NCBI GenBank assembly: GCA_028284885.1
Contig: JANQQW010000318.1
Span: 1 to 33,099, forward strand
DNA: 33,099 bases
DNA from: Planctomycetaceae bacterium
GTDB lineage: Bacteria > Planctomycetota > Planctomycetia > Planctomycetales > Planctomycetaceae
Reading direction: 5' to 3'
Shown: positions 23,692 to 30,961 of the stretch, piece after piece
Layout: every line of letters begins with the position of its first letter
How positions within the stretch are numbered: position 1 is the stretch's first letter
Made by a program: the position numbers and the translations under genes
Notes under the pieces: model-generated
Seen by the model: the letters and a program-made list of their open reading frames with translations, nothing else
What the model was told of the DNA's origin: nothing
Databases searched by the model: none

Positions 23692-26600
23692 GTGTTCTCG
23701 TCGGAAATTTCGGCACGACGTCATTTCCGGGCTCCTCACTTGTCGCGTTCGACGCAGCCCCGTCGCGACGAATCGCCGGTCGAACGATTCCGACCGCTGC
23801 TCGAAGTCCATCCACACGCGGTCCTGCTGGTCGACGACCGGGGAACGGTCGTTCTCGCCAGCCGCGCTGCCGAGGAGATGCTGGACCATTCGGAGACCGC
23901 TCTCGTCGGCACGCCCGTGCGGGACTGCTTCGTCGAGGACGACGAGTTCGAGCGGTGCTTCGCCCAGACGGCCCGCGGCAACCGCACGGAACTCGCCGTT
24001 CAGAACGTCGACGTCGTCCGGTCGCAGGGCGAGGCACTCGTCGTCGACCTCGGTTTCCGCTGTCTGGAGTCGGACGGACGTCGGTACGTACTCGTCGCCC
24101 TCGCTGACGCTTCCGAGCGAACTCGGCAGGAGATCGCCCTTCGGGACGAGGAGGCCCGGTACCACTCGCTCGTCGAGGGGCTGCCGCTGAACGTCTTCTT
24201 CAAGGACCTGCACTGCCGGTTCACGTTCGCCAACGAGTCCTGCCTCCGGCTGATGGAGCGGAAGCTGGAGGAACTCGTCGGCAAGACGGACTTCGACCTG
24301 TTCCCGACGGAGCTCGCCGAGAAGTACCGTCGGGACGACGAGCGGATCGTCACCTCCGGCGAGGTCTTCGAGGACGTCGAGGAGTACGGGGACAACACGG
24401 GCGAGCGGCGGTACGTCCAGGTGCTGAAGGCCCCCGTCCGGAACGCCGAGGGGGACGTCGTCGGCATTCAGGGGATGTTCTGGGACGTGTCGCCGCGTAA
24501 GCGGGCCGAGCAGGCTTTGCTCGAGAGCGAGACCCGCAAGTCCGCAATTCTCGAGGCGGCGTTCGACGGCATCGTCATGGCCGGCGAGGACGCGACGATC
24601 GTCGAGTTCAACGAGGCCGCCGAACAGATCTTCGGCATCGACTCGGACACGGCGATCGGCAAGCACTTCCTCGACACGCTCTTCCCGCAGCGGACGCGGG
24701 ACGTGCTCCGTCCACTCGTCCGCGAGCTGCTCGCCGACGGGGACTCCGACGGGCGACGACTCGAGGTCGAGGCGGTCCGGTCGGACGGGACGGTGTTCGA
24801 CGTCGAGGTCTCGCTGCGGCGGATCCCGGTCGACGAACGCCCCGCGATCGTCGCGTTCCTCCGCGACGTCACCGAGCGACGGCGTGCCGAGGCGGCGCTC
24901 GAACGGGAGCGGTTCCTGCTCCACAGCCTGATGAACAACGTGCCGGACAACATCTACTTCAAGGACCGGGCCGGCACGTTTCTCCGCATAAACAAGGCGA
25001 AGGCCCGGCGGTCGGGGCTCGACAACCCGGACCAGGCAGTCGGCCTCTCGGACCACGACATCTTCCCGCCGGAGCACGCGGCCGCGGCCCAGGCGGACGA
25101 ACAGCAGGTGATGCAGTCCGGACAACCGATCGTTGGCAAGGAGGAACGCCTCCTCTGGCCCGACGGCCGGACGACCTGGTCCTCGACGACCAAGGTCCCG
25201 CTCCGCGACGAGTCGGGGGCGATCGTCGGCACGTTCGGCATCTCCCGCGACGTGACCGACCAGAAACGCGTTCAGGAGGCCCTCCGGGAAGCGAAGGAGG
25301 CCGCCGAGGCCGCCAACCGCGCCAAGAGCGACTTCCTCGCCAACACCAGCCACGAGATTCGTACGCCGATGAACGCCATCATCGGCATGACGCAACTGTT
25401 GCTCGCCGAGAACGGACTGGACGACCGGCAACGCGAGTACCTCGGAATCGTCGAGGACTCCGCCGAGTCGTTGCTGACCGTCATCAACCAGGTGCTCGAC
25501 TTCTCGAAGGTCGAGTCGGGACACGTCGACGTCGTCGAGGAGCCGTTCGACGTCCGGGACCTGTTCGGCGACGCCGTCCGGTCACTCGCGCTGCGTGGTC
25601 AACGAAAGGGGCTGGAGATCGCCTTCCACGTTGCCCCCGACGTGCCCGAGGCGCTCGTGACCGACACGACCAAACTCCGGCAGGTGGTCGTCAACCTCGT
25701 CGGCAACGCGGTCAAGTTCACCGACGAGGGCGAGGTCGTGGTCGACGTGGCGGTCGAGTCGCGGACCGCGGACGGCCGATTCGTGCTGAGGACCGCCGTC
25801 CGGGACACCGGCATCGGCATTCCGACCGAGCAGCTCGACAGCATCTTCGAGGCCTTCCACCAGGTCGACATGTCCTCGACGCGACGGTTCGGGGGAACCG
25901 GACTCGGCCTGTCGATCTCCGCGCAGCTGGTCGACCTGCTGGGCGGTCGGATCTGGGCGACGAGCGAAGTGGGCCGTGGCAGCGAGTTCAGGTTCACGCT
26001 CCCGCTCCGCGAGGCCACCCTCGAGAGCTCGCAGCCGCCTCCCGAGTCGTTGAGCGGGCTCCGCGTGCTCGTCGTCGACGACAACGCGACCAACCGGGCG
26101 ATCCTCGAGGAGATGCTTCGCAACTGGGGCATGTCTCCGCGGTGCGAGGAGGGGGCCGAGGGGGCACGGCTGGCGCTCCAGGAGGCGATCGACCTCGACC
26201 GCCGGATCGACCTCGTCCTGTCCGACGTGCAGATGCCCCACGAGGACGGCTTCGCACTTGCCGGCTACCTCCGTGGTCAGAGCATGCTGTCCGAGACGCC
26301 GATCATCCTGCTCACGTCCGGCGACCGACCCGAGGACGCTGCCCGGTGTCGCGAGCTGCGGATCAACCGGTACATCCGCAAGCCGGCGAAGACGTCCGAG
26401 CTGTTCAACGCGATTGCGACGGCCGTGAACGTCCCGCCGGTCGCCAAGGAACGAGCCGAGCGTGCCGACGAGCCCTCGCCGGGCACCCCGCTCCGCGTGC
26501 TCGTGGTGGAGGACAGCCTGCCGAACCGGAAGCTGGCCGTGGGACTGCTCGAACGTTGGGGGCACAGTTGGGCGACCGCCGAGCACGGCCAGGAGGCCCT

Positions 26601-27252
26601 CGACCGGGTCCGGGAGGACGGGCCGTTCGACGTCGTGCTGATGGACGTGCAGATGCCGTTGATGGACGGTCTCGAGGCGACGGCCGCCATTCGCGAACTC
26701 GAGGCCGGGACGGAGACGCACCTCCCGATCATCGCCATGACGGCCCACGCGATGGCCGAGGACCGCGACCGCTGCCTCGCCGCCGGCATGGACGGCTACG
26801 TCTCCAAGCCGATCCGACCGGCCGTTCTGCGAACGGCGATCGAGACCGTCACCGGATCGGGGCAGGAGGCCTCGAACGAGTCCCCCGAGACGACGTCGAG
26901 CGATGCCCCGGAGTCACTCGTCGACTGGGACGCCGCGATGGAGATCGTCGACGGCGACCGCGATCTGCTCGGCATCGTCCACGACGCGTTCCTCGAGGAA
27001 CTCGACGAGACTCTCGAACACGTCGCGAACTCGGCGGAGGAGGGCGACGCGGACGAACTCCGCCGCTGGAGTCACAAGCTGAAGGGGGCGTTCCGTAGCA
27101 TCGCGGCGAACGTCCTCGAGCGGGACGCCGCCGCGATGGAGAAGGCCGCGGGCGAGGGCAGCACGGACGACGCTGCGGACCGGGTGGCCGCCATCTCGCG
27201 GCGGATTCCGGCCCTGCGTCGACAGCTCGACGAGTTCCGCGGCAACGGTTGA
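23692..27252 (+). CDS. Hybrid sensor histidine kinase with four PAS, two receiver and one Hpt domain
   Basis: This 1186-residue phosphorelay protein starts at GTG 23692 (TTG 23740 is the alternative; neither has a good ribosome-binding site). PAS domains span about 33-145, 155-270, 280-400 and 405-525. The HisKA domain has His554 in FLANTSHEIRTPMN. The ATPase domain has NLVGNAVKFTDEG, DTGIGIP and GTGLGLSI. Two receivers follow, with phospho-acceptors Asp845 (LSDVQMP) and Asp985 (LMDVQMP). The C-terminal Hpt domain has His1128 in WSHKLKGAF. The layout matches the BarA/ArcB-like phosphorelay, but no transmembrane segment is visible, so it is probably cytoplasmic and senses an internal signal, perhaps redox state or a ligand. 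The convergent lipoprotein gene ends 4 nt away. Confidence 0.94.
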   Translation: MFSSEISARRHFRAPHLSRSTQPRRDESPVERFRPLLEVHPHAVLLVDDRGTVVLASRAAEEMLDHSETALVGTPVRDCFVEDDEFERCFAQTARGNRTELAVQNVDVVRSQGEALVVDLGFRCLESDGRRYVLVALADASERTRQEIALRDEEARYHSLVEGLPLNVFFKDLHCRFTFANESCLRLMERKLEELVGKTDFDLFPTELAEKYRRDDERIVTSGEVFEDVEEYGDNTGERRYVQVLKAPVRNAEGDVVGIQGMFWDVSPRKRAEQALLESETRKSAILEAAFDGIVMAGEDATIVEFNEAAEQIFGIDSDTAIGKHFLDTLFPQRTRDVLRPLVRELLADGDSDGRRLEVEAVRSDGTVFDVEVSLRRIPVDERPAIVAFLRDVTERRRAEAALERERFLLHSLMNNVPDNIYFKDRAGTFLRINKAKARRSGLDNPDQAVGLSDHDIFPPEHAAAAQADEQQVMQSGQPIVGKEERLLWPDGRTTWSSTTKVPLRDESGAIVGTFGISRDVTDQKRVQEALREAKEAAEAANRAKSDFLANTSHEIRTPMNAIIGMTQLLLAENGLDDRQREYLGIVEDSAESLLTVINQVLDFSKVESGHVDVVEEPFDVRDLFGDAVRSLALRGQRKGLEIAFHVAPDVPEALVTDTTKLRQVVVNLVGNAVKFTDEGEVVVDVAVESRTADGRFVLRTAVRDTGIGIPTEQLDSIFEAFHQVDMSSTRRFGGTGLGLSISAQLVDLLGGRIWATSEVGRGSEFRFTLPLREATLESSQPPPESLSGLRVLVVDDNATNRAILEEMLRNWGMSPRCEEGAEGARLALQEAIDLDRRIDLVLSDVQMPHEDGFALAGYLRGQSMLSETPIILLTSGDRPEDAARCRELRINRYIRKPAKTSELFNAIATAVNVPPVAKERAERADEPSPGTPLRVLVVEDSLPNRKLAVGLLERWGHSWATAEHGQEALDRVREDGPFDVVLMDVQMPLMDGLEATAAIRELEAGTETHLPIIAMTAHAMAEDRDRCLAAGMDGYVSKPIRPAVLRTAIETVTGSGQEASNESPETTSSDAPESLVDWDAAMEIVDGDRDLLGIVHDAFLEELDETLEHVANSAEEGDADELRRWSHKLKGAFRSIAANVLERDAAAMEKAAGEGSTDDAADRVAAISRRIPALRRQLDEFRGNG

Positions 27253-27256
27253 GCGG

Positions 27257-28228
27257 TCAGTTCGCCCCCGCCGGTGCCCCGGCCAGGCGAGTCGGGGACT
27301 CGGTCGCCGTGAACGCCGCCCAGACCGGGAGGTGGTCCGAGACCGCGATCGCCTCGTCGCGGGTCAGGCCGAACTCGGCCTCGAGGTCGAGCACCCCCCA
27401 GCGGCCCGTGTACTCGTCCGTGGCCGCTCCGTCGAAGACGAGGTTGTCGTAGGTCTTCGTGCGTCGGGTGTTCGTCGGCATTCCGGAGACCGCCCACGTC
27501 GCGTTCGGGATGCCGGCGAGCTCGCCGAACTTCGACTCGTCGGCGTTCAGGTCGCCCAGCACGATCACGTCGTCCTCGCTCGGGTCCGTCCGCAGCACGA
27601 AGCGGTACGCGTCGTCGAGCACGTCCACCTCCTCGTCGACCTCGTCGGGATCCGTGTGCACGTTGACGAGCGTGAACGTGAACGGGGCTCCGCCCTCGGC
27701 TCCGATCGTGCGGAAACGGGCGACGAACGGCTCGCGGTGCAGCCGGTCGTTCCGGTCCGGGATCGTGTAGGTCGAGTCGGGAACGAGTTCGATCCGCGTG
27801 GCGTCGTAGACGTACGCGTACTGCTCCTTGCTGACCGTCCGGCCGAGGCGCGGACCGATGACGTACTCGTACCGATGCCCGTCCTCGTTGACGAGATCGA
27901 CCAGCTGGCCGAGCACCGACTGGTCCTTCGAGCGAATCTCCTGGATGGCGACGACGTCGAACCGCCGCAGCGTCTTCGCGAGCACGTCCATCACCTCGGG
28001 CTTCCCGGCCTTCGACGTGCCGAAGACCTGGATGTTGAAGGACGCGATCAGGACGTCGCCGTCGCGGGTGGTGGGTGTCCCGGTCTCCGGGCCGGAGATG
28101 CTGGTCGTCGGCCCGCCGAGGTCGAACGTGAGTTCCTCGCAGCCGACGGCCGTCCACAGCAGCCCGGCGAGCATCACGGGGGCCAGCAGCCACTGCCAAC
28201 GCGTCCGGTTCTTCTTGTCGTTCGTCAC
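27257..28228 (-). CDS. Secreted DNase I-like endonuclease/phosphatase (lipoprotein)
   Basis: The 323-residue product starts at ATG 28228 on the minus strand. Residues 13-29 are hydrophobic and end at Cys30 in the imperfect lipobox AVGC, so a lipid-anchored exported protein is likely. The endonuclease/exonuclease/phosphatase fold follows: Asn65 in IASFNIQVFG, the metal Glu in VVAIQEIRS, the His in LVNVHTDPDEV, VIVLGDLNADE, and the catalytic His in AVSDHLPVWAAF. The order and spacing fit bacterial DNase I-like nucleases, though phosphodiesterases of other types share the fold. It could digest extracellular DNA for nutrients. It is the last gene of a reverse four-gene run, 41 nt after the HEAT gene. 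Confidence 0.9.
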   Translation of the reverse strand: MTNDKKNRTRWQWLLAPVMLAGLLWTAVGCEELTFDLGGPTTSISGPETGTPTTRDGDVLIASFNIQVFGTSKAGKPEVMDVLAKTLRRFDVVAIQEIRSKDQSVLGQLVDLVNEDGHRYEYVIGPRLGRTVSKEQYAYVYDATRIELVPDSTYTIPDRNDRLHREPFVARFRTIGAEGGAPFTFTLVNVHTDPDEVDEEVDVLDDAYRFVLRTDPSEDDVIVLGDLNADESKFGELAGIPNATWAVSGMPTNTRRTKTYDNLVFDGAATDEYTGRWGVLDLEAEFGLTRDEAIAVSDHLPVWAAFTATESPTRLAGAPAGAN

Positions 28229-28269: not shown

Positions 28270-28770
28270 TCAGCGGACTTGGTCGAGCGCTTTCGTCGCC
28301 AAGCGGGCGAGTCGTGGGTCGTCGTCCCGAGTCGCCCGTTCGAGGGCCGGGACCGCGGCGGCCGCGGCAGTGCCGATCCGGCCGAGTGCCCAGGCCGAAC
28401 GATGTCGGGTGTTCTGAACCGGCGACCCGAGACCCGCGGCGAGTGCGGGAACGGCTGGGGCGGCTTGGTCACCGAGACGGCCGAGCAGCGTGGCCGCCCA
28501 GTAGCCGACGTCCCCTTCGTCCGCGCTCAGCAACGCGGCGAGTCGGTCGACGTCCGAAGCGAGCGGATGTTCGATCGACTCGAGTGCGCCGACGAGGTGT
28601 TCCAGCAGGACCTCGTCGTCGGTCGCGGTCGCGCTCACGATCGCGATGGCCGCGGGAGCGGCGTCGGGGCCAAGTTGCAACAGTCGCTCGGCCGACGCGT
28701 GGCGGAGGGACTCGTCGTCGCTCGCCAGCCCGGCTGCGAGGTCTGCAAGGTCGGTGTGTGAAGTCGTCAT
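28270..28770 (-). CDS. Short HEAT-repeat protein
   Basis: The 166-residue protein starts at ATG 28770 on the minus strand. Three or four HEAT-like helical pairs are visible: LRHASAERLLQLGPDAAPAAIAIV, VLLEHLVGALESIEHP, VGYWAATLLGRLGDQAAPAVPALAAGL, and RHRSAWALGRIGTAAAAAVPALERA. There is no signal peptide, so it is presumably cytoplasmic and binds another protein. It sits between the GlmU-like gene (21-nt gap) and the DNase-like lipoprotein gene (41-nt gap). The partner is unknown. Confidence 0.82.
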   Translation of the reverse strand: MTTSHTDLADLAAGLASDDESLRHASAERLLQLGPDAAPAAIAIVSATATDDEVLLEHLVGALESIEHPLASDVDRLAALLSADEGDVGYWAATLLGRLGDQAAPAVPALAAGLGSPVQNTRHRSAWALGRIGTAAAAAVPALERATRDDDPRLARLATKALDQVR

Positions 28771-28791: not shown

Positions 28792-30075
28792 TCAGCCGGC
28801 CCGCCCGGCCGTTGTGGAAGGACTCGGACGACCGGGCTTCCGCCGCAGCGCGCGAAGGCGGACGAGGCGTGTGCGGTCGAACGTGGCTCGCAGCAACTCC
28901 TCGGCGGCCGGCCCGAGCACGCGGCCTCTCCGACCGGCGGCCGTGCGGGCCGTTGCGACGACGCCGTCGAGGTCGCGGTTCTCGACGAGTTCTCCGCGAA
29001 GCAGCGACGTGAAGGAGGGAACGAACCTCGGCACGAGCCCGCTGTACGGGACGACGGTCGCCGCGACGCCGATCGAAGTGCCGGTGTTGAACAAGGTGCC
29101 GATCGCGGTCTTCGCGTGGTCGCCGACGAAGGTCCCGACCTTGGTCAGGCCGGTCTCGACCGGATCGCCGGCGAGCGGGACGCGGACCGGCCCGTAGTCG
29201 TTCCGCAGGTCGCTGTTGGTCGTGCCCGCACCGAGGTTGACCCACGGACAGACGTACGCGTGCCCGAGGAAGCCGTCGTGGTACTTGTTCACGTGGCCGT
29301 GCAGGATCGACTGTTCGACCTCGCCGCCGACGCGGCAGTTCGGACCGATCGTCGTCCCAGCGTGGATCTCCGCCCGCAGCAGTCGGGAGCCGGCGCCCAC
29401 GAAACTGGGCCCTTCGACGCGGGTGAACGACTGCAGCACGGCCCCCGCCTCTACGCGGACCGGACCCCGACGGACGTCGAGCACGACGCACGGTTCGACC
29501 ACGGCGTCGTCGTCGATCGAGACCCTTTCTCGTGGACCGATCACCTCGACCGGCACGCCGGGCGTGACGCGATCGTCCGCGGCGGCGTCTCGTTCGAGCT
29601 GTCGCGGATTCTCCTCGACGAGGTCCCACGGCCGGGCGAGCAGCACGCCGTCGAGTTCGACCGGGACGCGGCAGGAGACGATCTGCGTCAACTCGTCCGC
29701 CCAACGTCCACCGGCGAGTCGTTCGCCTTCGACGGCATCGACCGGCAGCAAGACGACCGTCTCGCCGGCCAGCCCGACCTCCGTCGGTCGGACGGCTGCG
29801 AGCGACTCGGGGTTCGCCAACCACCGACCGTTGACGAGCAACGTCGGCCCGAGCGCGAGCCAGTCCGTCCGGTTGACGACGAGGTCCGGGTACATCTCCC
29901 TGAGTGAGTCGGCGAGGTGCGGTCGGACGAATGCTCCCCACTCGACGTCGTGGAGGCGGGAACGGAGTCGCTCGAACTGGGACGTGCGCCCGCAGACCAG
30001 CTCGAAGACGGCGCGGAGGTGGACCAGCGGCCCGAAGTCCTCCGCCTCCGCGTCCTCGTAGAAGGCGATTCGCAC
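28792..30075 (-). CDS. GlmU-type sugar nucleotidyltransferase/acetyltransferase (TIGR03991-like)
   Basis: The 427-residue product starts at GTG 30075 on the minus strand. It matches the alternative GlmU family (TIGR03991): an N-terminal nucleotidyltransferase-like part beginning IAFYEDAEAEDFGPLVHLRAVFELVCG, different from standard GlmU, joined to a left-handed beta-helix from about residue 200 (hexapeptide repeats such as VEAGAVLQS, FVGAGSRL, TIGPNCRVGG, LGHAYVCPWVNLGAGTTNSDLRNDY). The last motif is characteristic. The family is thought to make UDP-N-acetylglucosamine for the envelope, acting on glucosamine-1-phosphate. The C-terminal 45 residues are Arg-rich and variable. It follows the Hpt-receiver gene after 22 nt in the same reverse run. 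Confidence 0.88.
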   Translation of the reverse strand: MRIAFYEDAEAEDFGPLVHLRAVFELVCGRTSQFERLRSRLHDVEWGAFVRPHLADSLREMYPDLVVNRTDWLALGPTLLVNGRWLANPESLAAVRPTEVGLAGETVVLLPVDAVEGERLAGGRWADELTQIVSCRVPVELDGVLLARPWDLVEENPRQLERDAAADDRVTPGVPVEVIGPRERVSIDDDAVVEPCVVLDVRRGPVRVEAGAVLQSFTRVEGPSFVGAGSRLLRAEIHAGTTIGPNCRVGGEVEQSILHGHVNKYHDGFLGHAYVCPWVNLGAGTTNSDLRNDYGPVRVPLAGDPVETGLTKVGTFVGDHAKTAIGTLFNTGTSIGVAATVVPYSGLVPRFVPSFTSLLRGELVENRDLDGVVATARTAAGRRGRVLGPAAEELLRATFDRTRLVRLRALRRKPGRPSPSTTAGRAG

Positions 30076-30097: not shown

Positions 30098-30961
30098 TCA
30101 CGCCGCCGCCGTCGAGCGGCGGTCCTGCAGTTCGCCGATCGCGGTCAGCAGTTCGCTTGTGCGGTACTTCAGGAGGAACCGGTCGAAACCCGCTGCAAGA
30201 GCACGGTCGCGTTCGGACTCCCGACTGCCGGCGACGAGGGCGACCAACGGTGGTGTCTGTGGCTTGTTCCGGAGCGAGCCGGCCAACGAGATTCCGTCCG
30301 CGTCGGGCAAGTCGAGTTCGCTGACGACGACGTCGACCGGTTCGTCGCCGTCGAAGTACTCGATCGCTGCTGCCGCGGTCTCCACGGCCGTGACCCGGTG
30401 CTCGCAGTCCGTCAGCGACGCTCGCAACAGTTCTCGGTAGAAGAGCGAGTCGTCGACGACGAGCACGTGCAGCCCGCCAATGTTCTCCGCGACGCCAACC
30501 CGCTCATCGGAGTGCGGAGTCTTGTCGGGCGCGAACACTCGCTCGACGACCGCGGACGGTGACTCGTAGAGGGCCAGCGGGTACGTCTGCGGTTCCGGGA
30601 CGTCAACGACGTCCGGCTCGGGCTCCACTGTCGCGTCGTTCGCTTCCTCGATGTCGGGAGCGATTCGTGTCGTCTCGCCCGACCGGAGTGAGTCGAGCAG
30701 ATCCGCCAACTCTTCGAGACGGGACGACACGTCGTCCGTCCGTCCGGTGGCCACGGCCGCCTCCGCCGCGGCCACGGCCGCCCCGAGCGACGCGAGTCCC
30801 ACGAAGCCGCAGCCGACTCTAAGATCCCCGAGCCCACGCGCGACTTCCGCGAGTCGATCGCTCGGATCGGGCTCGGGACCGATTTTGGCGACCGCGGCAC
30901 GGAGGTGCTCCACGACCTCGGCGCACTCGACCAGGAACGGCTGGAGTAGACGATCGTCCAT
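30098..30961 (-). CDS. Degenerate Hpt-receiver protein without phospho-acceptor residues
   Basis: I start it at ATG 30961 (287 residues); an AAGGAG lies 14 nt upstream, an awkward distance. Residues 1-95 resemble a CheA-type Hpt/P1 helical domain, but at the phospho-site the family HTLKG is GDLRV (residues 45-49), so the His is lost. A linker rich in Glu, Pro and Val (100-160) leads to a receiver domain (164-285) with the acidic pair Asp170-Asp171, a switch region and Lys265. The phospho-acceptor position in VVVSELDLPDADG is Glu215 instead of Asp. There is no kinase core. It is probably a pseudo-relay protein that binds partners constitutively. Its gene leads a reverse four-gene run. Confidence 0.88.
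   Translation of the reverse strand: MDDRLLQPFLVECAEVVEHLRAAVAKIGPEPDPSDRLAEVARGLGDLRVGCGFVGLASLGAAVAAAEAAVATGRTDDVSSRLEELADLLDSLRSGETTRIAPDIEEANDATVEPEPDVVDVPEPQTYPLALYESPSAVVERVFAPDKTPHSDERVGVAENIGGLHVLVVDDSLFYRELLRASLTDCEHRVTAVETAAAAIEYFDGDEPVDVVVSELDLPDADGISLAGSLRNKPQTPPLVALVAGSRESERDRALAAGFDRFLLKYRTSELLTAIGELQDRRSTAAA

Follow-up and report, generated by a model that had tools for sequence, protein, structure and literature searches.

What remains for a signalling protein to do when it has no kinase and neither of the residues that carry phosphate? A gene in the window, by which we mean the whole stretch of 33,099 nucleotides analysed here (contig JANQQW010000318.1 of a Planctomycetaceae bacterium), raises this question. 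An earlier note, made from the sequence alone, described its product as an Hpt-receiver fusion that has lost both phosphorylation sites and that might serve as a pseudo-relay scaffold or decoy. We call this 287-aa protein P0001. Our answer is that P0001 is probably a descendant of cheA without the core, left over from a che operon and maintained as a folded protein that acts by binding.

Domains of P0001

The open reading frame of P0001 lies on the minus strand. Translation gives 287 codons, from an ATG at 30961 to a stop at 30098-30100, and stops interrupt the plus-strand frame over the gene. Two Pfam families score above their cutoffs: Hpt (PF01627) on residues 5-94 with 28.7 bits (cutoff 24.6), and Response_reg (PF00072) on residues 166-274 with 61.9 bits (cutoff 30.2). 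The dimerisation (P3), kinase (P4) and CheW-like (P5) domains have no Pfam match within the 287 aa, in agreement with the earlier statement that the protein lacks a kinase core. The parts of the protein are as follows.

30098-30961, minus strand: P0001, core-less and very probably CheA-derived protein of 287 aa (ORF and translation; Pfam Hpt and Response_reg; CheA HMMs)
30680-30961, minus strand: pseudo-Hpt, most likely derived from CheA P1, residues 1-94, four-helix bundle (Pfam; single-sequence AF2; Foldseek)
30470-30679, minus strand: low-confidence linker, residues 95-164, in place of the CheA core (P3-P5) (pLDDT below 50 for 97-161)
30113-30469, minus strand: pseudo-receiver, most likely derived from the CheA receiver, residues 165-283 (Pfam; HMM; AF2 and Foldseek; tree)

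In CheA the core between the two ends spans about 600 residues. P0001 has the 70-residue linker there. P0001 shows no detectable trace of the motif found before the receiver in CheA, which blurs the point of fusion. Loss of the core through an assembly break can be rejected because the open reading frame is closed on both sides: it ends 22 bp from a glmU gene and on the other side faces a divergent ABC permease gene.

Neither phosphorylation site is left

We compared the critical residues of P0001 with those of 33 CheA proteins of the same family. These come from 17 genera, with one genus contributing 14 of the 33. Five positions matter.

30827-30829, minus strand: codon of Gly45, phospho-His column (His in 33 of 33 family CheAs)
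30449-30454, minus strand: acidic pair Asp170-Asp171, kept (alignment, residue check)
30317-30319, minus strand: codon of Glu215, phospho-Asp column (Asp in 29 and Glu in 3 of 32 family CheA receivers)
30233-30235, minus strand: codon of Val243, Thr/Ser switch column (Thr in 26, Ser in 4 and Ala in 2 of 32 CheA receivers)
30167-30169, minus strand: codon of the conserved Lys265, followed by Tyr (Lys-aromatic of the CheA-receiver type, not Lys-Pro; alignment)

The residues named by the earlier note all fall where it had placed them. Gly45, within GDLRV, occupies the phospho-His position, Glu215 occupies the phospho-Asp position, and both the acidic pair and Lys265 are kept. The phospho-accepting histidine of an Hpt domain is absent from P0001, and none of its histidines (19, 150, 165 and 188) lies at the phospho-site. 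Hpt domains without the phospho-His are rare, making up only 0.9% (PMC12632262).

The receiver retains an incomplete catalytic set: the acidic pair and the lysine are kept, the aspartate is replaced by Glu215 and the switch Thr/Ser by Val243. This last substitution, which the earlier note missed, occurs in P0001 only; 30 of the 32 CheA receivers have Thr or Ser in that column. According to the alignment the phospho-Asp is absent, and the domain is by definition an aspartate-less receiver, or pseudo-receiver. Judged from these residues, phosphotransfer through the usual sites of P0001 is excluded.

Descent from CheA

A CheA-P1 HMM matches residues 1-81 of P0001 with 37.1 bits, starting at Met1, and a CheA-receiver HMM matches residues 165-283 with 98.2 bits. 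Neither match is due to chance, because 500 within-half shuffles reach only 6.0 bits for the first model and 7.2 bits for the second. The best matches of the receiver half are the C-terminal receivers of same-family proteins of 870-960 aa, and all of these proteins are CheA. The CheA encoded by the same genome (contig C165) matches P0001 at the N-terminus and at the C-terminus alike; in Pfam it has Hpt, H-kinase_dim, HATPase_c, CheW-like and receiver domains.

Finer features agree. In the alignment the start of P0001 coincides with the start of the family CheAs, and the P1-like part runs without gaps through the site region. The receiver carries two signs specific to CheA, the motif DDSxF[FY]R and, after the lysine, an aromatic residue in a place that is proline in most receivers. 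A receiver tree places P0001 within the CheA receivers with support 83. We use this tree for the placement of P0001 only; its 'other' group includes truncated copies of CheA loci.

The HMMs, the receiver tree and the che-operon position described below all indicate descent from CheA for both terminal domains. We are highly confident that the two domains are CheA-derived and that the gene occupies the position of a che locus. P0001 is CheA by descent, yet it is no member under the usual definition, which rests on four core domains; these are present in every CheA of a published survey (PMC10782961). Hence the description as an Hpt-receiver fusion stands as far as the two domains go, but it did not see that both come from CheA.

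One candidate for a second Hpt-receiver protein, L097 (274 aa, with a receiver after 147 aa), turned out to be the end of a hybrid kinase.

The locus and its relatives

P0001 is the first gene of a co-directional run that continues with three further genes.

28792-30075, minus strand: alternative glmU (TIGR03991 alt_bact_glmU, 314 bits, cutoff 225.3; Pfam NTP_transf_4)
28270-28770, minus strand: HEAT-repeat protein, 21 bp past glmU (Pfam HEAT_2)
27257-28228, minus strand: endonuclease/exonuclease/phosphatase-family (EEP) protein, last gene of the run (Pfam PF03372)

The gene had been said to head a run with envelope and nuclease genes. The 'envelope' gene can now be specified as the alternative glmU. 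It begins 22 bp past the stop of P0001 on the same strand. The HEAT-repeat gene is probably in the same transcription unit as glmU, and the EEP-family gene follows it after 41 bp, again on the same strand.

In several relatives the place before glmU is taken by chemotaxis genes. In G013, G020, G024 and G087 glmU comes directly after cheA-cheW-mcp-cheY-cheB-cheR, with cheY not detected in the operon of G013. In genus g58, 14 genomes yielded both cheA and glmU, and by coordinates the two genes are separated by 7-9 kb in every one of them. In G105 the che operon is split: cheY-cheB-cheR-glmU lie together (L188:4531-8471, C96) and cheA-cheW-mcp are on another contig (C152). The cheA and glmU loci of G032 and G122 are megabases apart, and many glmU loci have unrelated neighbours.

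Closest to the window's glmU is that of G012, where no che genes lie nearby; the gene before the G012 glmU, considered as a counterpart of P0001, is unrelated to it. Deep branches of a CheA core tree are poorly supported, which bears on whether the linkage of che and glmU has a single origin or several. P0001 sits in the che position adjoining glmU, and an intact che operon is found on another contig of its own genome.

The CheA of this genome (L041:7524-10178, G000:C165) has a degenerate receiver, in which Asp-Arg replaces the acidic pair and the phospho-Asp is Glu. The CheA receivers of G023 and G094 are degenerate in a similar way.

Fold and maintenance

When the P1 half is modelled alone (single-sequence AF2), it is predicted to form a four-helix bundle with a pLDDT of 81.5. 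The best Foldseek match of this model is a CheA P1 domain, 2ld6, and 1tqg and 1i5n are matched as well. VIA-align scores the model against CheA P1 1tqg at Z 13.8. This match is consistent with a P1 origin rather than decisive, because unrelated helical bundles reach Z 14. The full-length AF2 model, which is based on an alignment of four rows, has a normal receiver fold that matches receiver structures in Foldseek, and the linker residues 97-161 stay below a pLDDT of 50.

The gene also looks like one that still codes for a protein. Its GC content at the three codon positions (0.76/0.47/0.81) is similar to that of the neighbouring genes. There is no stop in 287 codons, compared to 6.2 expected if the frame were unconstrained and saturated (P about 0.002).

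The two halves have diverged to different degrees. The P1 part of P0001 is 22-35% identical to that of the CheAs, which share a mean of 73% among themselves. For the receiver the values are 27-43% and a mean of 48%. This pattern, strongest in P1 and weaker in the receiver, would fit a protein that lost phosphotransfer and kept its receiver fold.

No orthologue of P0001 was found in 170 same-family genomes or in other genomic and viral contig collections, where the search returned ordinary receivers or nothing. The short open frames recovered by an Hpt-only search of the 170 family genomes could be assigned to contig ends, to CheA of other types or to the P1-globin fusion of G119 described below. 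A match (46% over 41 aa) on contig C159 of G012 proved to lie in a spurious frame, one that overlaps a real gene.

Parallel proteins before glmU

Running the CheA-P1 model over about 40 glmU loci revealed two further P1 proteins without a core, in G119 and G014, which represent two other genera. The G119 protein (L138:6005-7411, C50) combines a P1 domain, in which the His is intact, with a globin domain (Pfam, 44 bits); cheY, cheR and glmU follow. This genome is 100% complete, and no full CheA was detected in it at E 1e-60. In G014 (L080:7371-8225, C518) a P1-globin protein of 284 aa, with Ser for the phospho-His, is encoded 37 bp before glmU. Its Pfam scan is empty, and ordinary annotation would miss it. 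The two P1-globin proteins align with each other in both halves, at E about 1e-5 each.

The globin half resembles chemoreceptors. The che-operon chemoreceptors of G087 and G020 have an N-terminal globin that is 43% and 33% identical, respectively, to the G119 globin. Chemoreceptors that start with a globin domain are seen at L157:4079-6610 and L073:7965-10433, where the che operons precede an alternative glmU. Such globin-headed chemoreceptors are likely to sense oxygen or redox state.

Both P1-globin proteins resemble P0001 in that a core-less CheA P1 lies between the che position and glmU. The G014 protein is like P0001 in two more respects: the phospho-His is gone and glmU is close behind. 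The difference is the second domain, a chemoreceptor-type globin in the P1-globin proteins and a receiver in P0001. Going by present-day gene order, frame-keeping deletions inside cheA-cheW-mcp would yield P1-globin proteins.

Repeated erosion of che operons next to glmU, leaving short P1-bearing proteins behind, fits these loci best. A more speculative extension is that the products were re-used, and that they make up a new class of chemosensory remnants that do without phosphorylation and possibly link chemosensing to the supply of UDP-GlcNAc, a cell-wall precursor. We consider this extension rather doubtful.

A proposed remnant that acts by binding

To explain P0001 we propose that an ancestral che operon adjoining glmU shrank by internal deletions. 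An in-frame P1-receiver remnant would have stayed, with a complete che operon elsewhere in the genome. We infer this deletion route rather than see it, because the linkage of che and glmU is patchy and the nearest glmU, that of G012, is without che genes nearby. With less certainty, the remnant would still be maintained and folded although it is incapable of phosphotransfer. It would then bind, most likely blocking the surfaces where P1 and the CheA receiver dock on CheY/CheB or on CheA itself. P1 and the receiver are the CheA parts that dock on other Che proteins, hence a non-reactive copy would compete with them. The resulting role would be dominant-negative or buffering, as for pseudo-Hpt proteins.

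Binding is the most likely role because the sequence excludes phosphotransfer at the usual sites and because Val243 weakens the reading of Glu215 as a mimic. Taken on its own, we put forward a binding role tentatively, giving it somewhat less than an even chance. The idea of a pseudo-relay scaffold or decoy survives in this form: with both phospho-sites lost and no core, binding would be the most natural role that remains. What that idea did not include is that P0001 comes from CheA and that a che operon has eroded at its locus.

The main rival holds that the protein itself is idle: the former operon would have retained its 5' end only because the promoter, the ribosome site and in-frame translation drive glmU. 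In all three reduced loci, what is left of cheA is indeed its 5' end. The genes of P0001 and of the G014 protein lie directly before glmU, and gaps of 22 and 37 bp suit translational coupling. Inside the run there is no promoter- or terminator-like site, which is a weak test in a GC-rich genome. However, the same glmU does without any che remnant in many relatives. Furthermore, a pure leader has no need of the features that P0001 has kept despite its divergence: a receiver fold with the acidic pair and Lys265, and a P1 that is foldable. We consider an idle leader unlikely.

Alternatively, the gene could be in slow decay, a pseudogene before its first stop whose sites were lost through drift. 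The His, the Asp and the switch Thr/Ser are all gone, P1 is strongly diverged and P0001 is a singleton in its family. On the other hand, neither a stop nor a frameshift is present, GC content is of the coding type, an intact frame is improbable at saturation and both domains still score as their families. Decay of this kind is a quite improbable explanation.

The earlier note favoured another mechanism, in which Glu215 locks the receiver in an active-like state that sends a constant signal. Glu mimics phospho-Asp in some receivers (PMC4395418, PMC12632262), and P0001 has kept Asp170-Asp171 and Lys265. However, for mimicry the carboxylate has to be bound by Thr/Ser and Lys (PMC12632262), and the Thr/Ser is Val243 in P0001. 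Glu alone is often insufficient to activate a receiver, and it is the commonest residue at the Asp site of aspartate-less receivers (26%; PMC4395418). Three of the 32 family CheA receivers have Glu at this column as well. One of them belongs to the intact CheA of the same genome, where the Glu occurs alongside a lost acidic pair, which points to the drift of a receiver that is unused for phosphate. The evidence weakens the proposed lock, and a permanently active receiver seems to us even less probable than decay. P0001 also teaches caution: once the Thr/Ser partner has been lost, a Glu in place of the Asp is no ground for assuming phosphomimicry.

That the phosphoryl group sits on a different residue is very hard to believe. 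P0001 does have His19, His188 and many acidic residues, but there is no His in helix 2 at the point where Hpt domains face the receiver, and no other acidic residue replaces the beta3 Asp.

The hybrid kinase encoded at 23692 had been suggested as a source of phosphate for P0001. It loses any claim to be a special partner, since P0001 has its relatives in CheA P1 and the CheA receiver and the kinase brings an Hpt of its own. Encoded at 23692-27252, it forms a complete relay alone: about four PAS domains and HisKA-HATPase are combined with two receivers, and the Hpt at the C-terminus has its His (SHKLKG). Beyond proximity, there is no link between this kinase and P0001.

Comparison with known systems

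Taken singly, the elements of P0001 are of known kinds: pseudo-receivers, Hpt domains lacking His and CheA without a kinase have all been described. In the open-access papers searched we did not find their combination, in which a CheA-derived pseudo-Hpt and pseudo-receiver stand free at a che locus that has eroded and P1-globin remnants occur in parallel. P0001 illustrates that the loss of the kinase and of both phosphate sites need not prevent a phosphorelay protein from persisting in foldable form, and three lineages display different forms of one reduction. Because P0001 and a CheA of the parental type occur in one genome, they offer a simple system for testing decoy action of pseudo-Hpt and pseudo-receiver proteins.

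CheA-type Hpt domains without His also occur in ChpA of P. aeruginosa, where their role is undetermined (PMC10782961). Unlike P0001, ChpA combines them in one protein with a kinase core and with further Hpt domains that are active.

Aspartate-less receivers and pseudo-receivers (ALR, PsR) share with P0001 a receiver fold that lacks the Asp. The pseudo-receiver of P0001 differs in being joined to a pseudo-Hpt and in having no output domain.

The CheA of the same genome, a CheA-CheY hybrid, has the same order and start as P0001, with P1 at the N-terminus and a receiver of the same subfamily at the C-terminus. P0001 differs from it by lacking the dimerisation, kinase and CheW-like domains and the phospho-His.

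Another case of reduction is the split CheA of Rhodobacter sphaeroides. Its CheA3 is related to CheA and, like P0001, keeps a P1 without the kinase domain. CheA3 reportedly retains a His that can be phosphorylated and cooperates with the kinase CheA4, whereas in P0001 the His is gone.

Finally, the pseudo-Hpt protein AHP6 of Arabidopsis has an Hpt fold without the phospho-His, as P0001 does, and inhibits a phosphorelay. AHP6 is a stand-alone Hpt of a plant, has no receiver and is of unrelated origin. By analogy, P0001 may inhibit a relay in the manner of AHP6, through binding.
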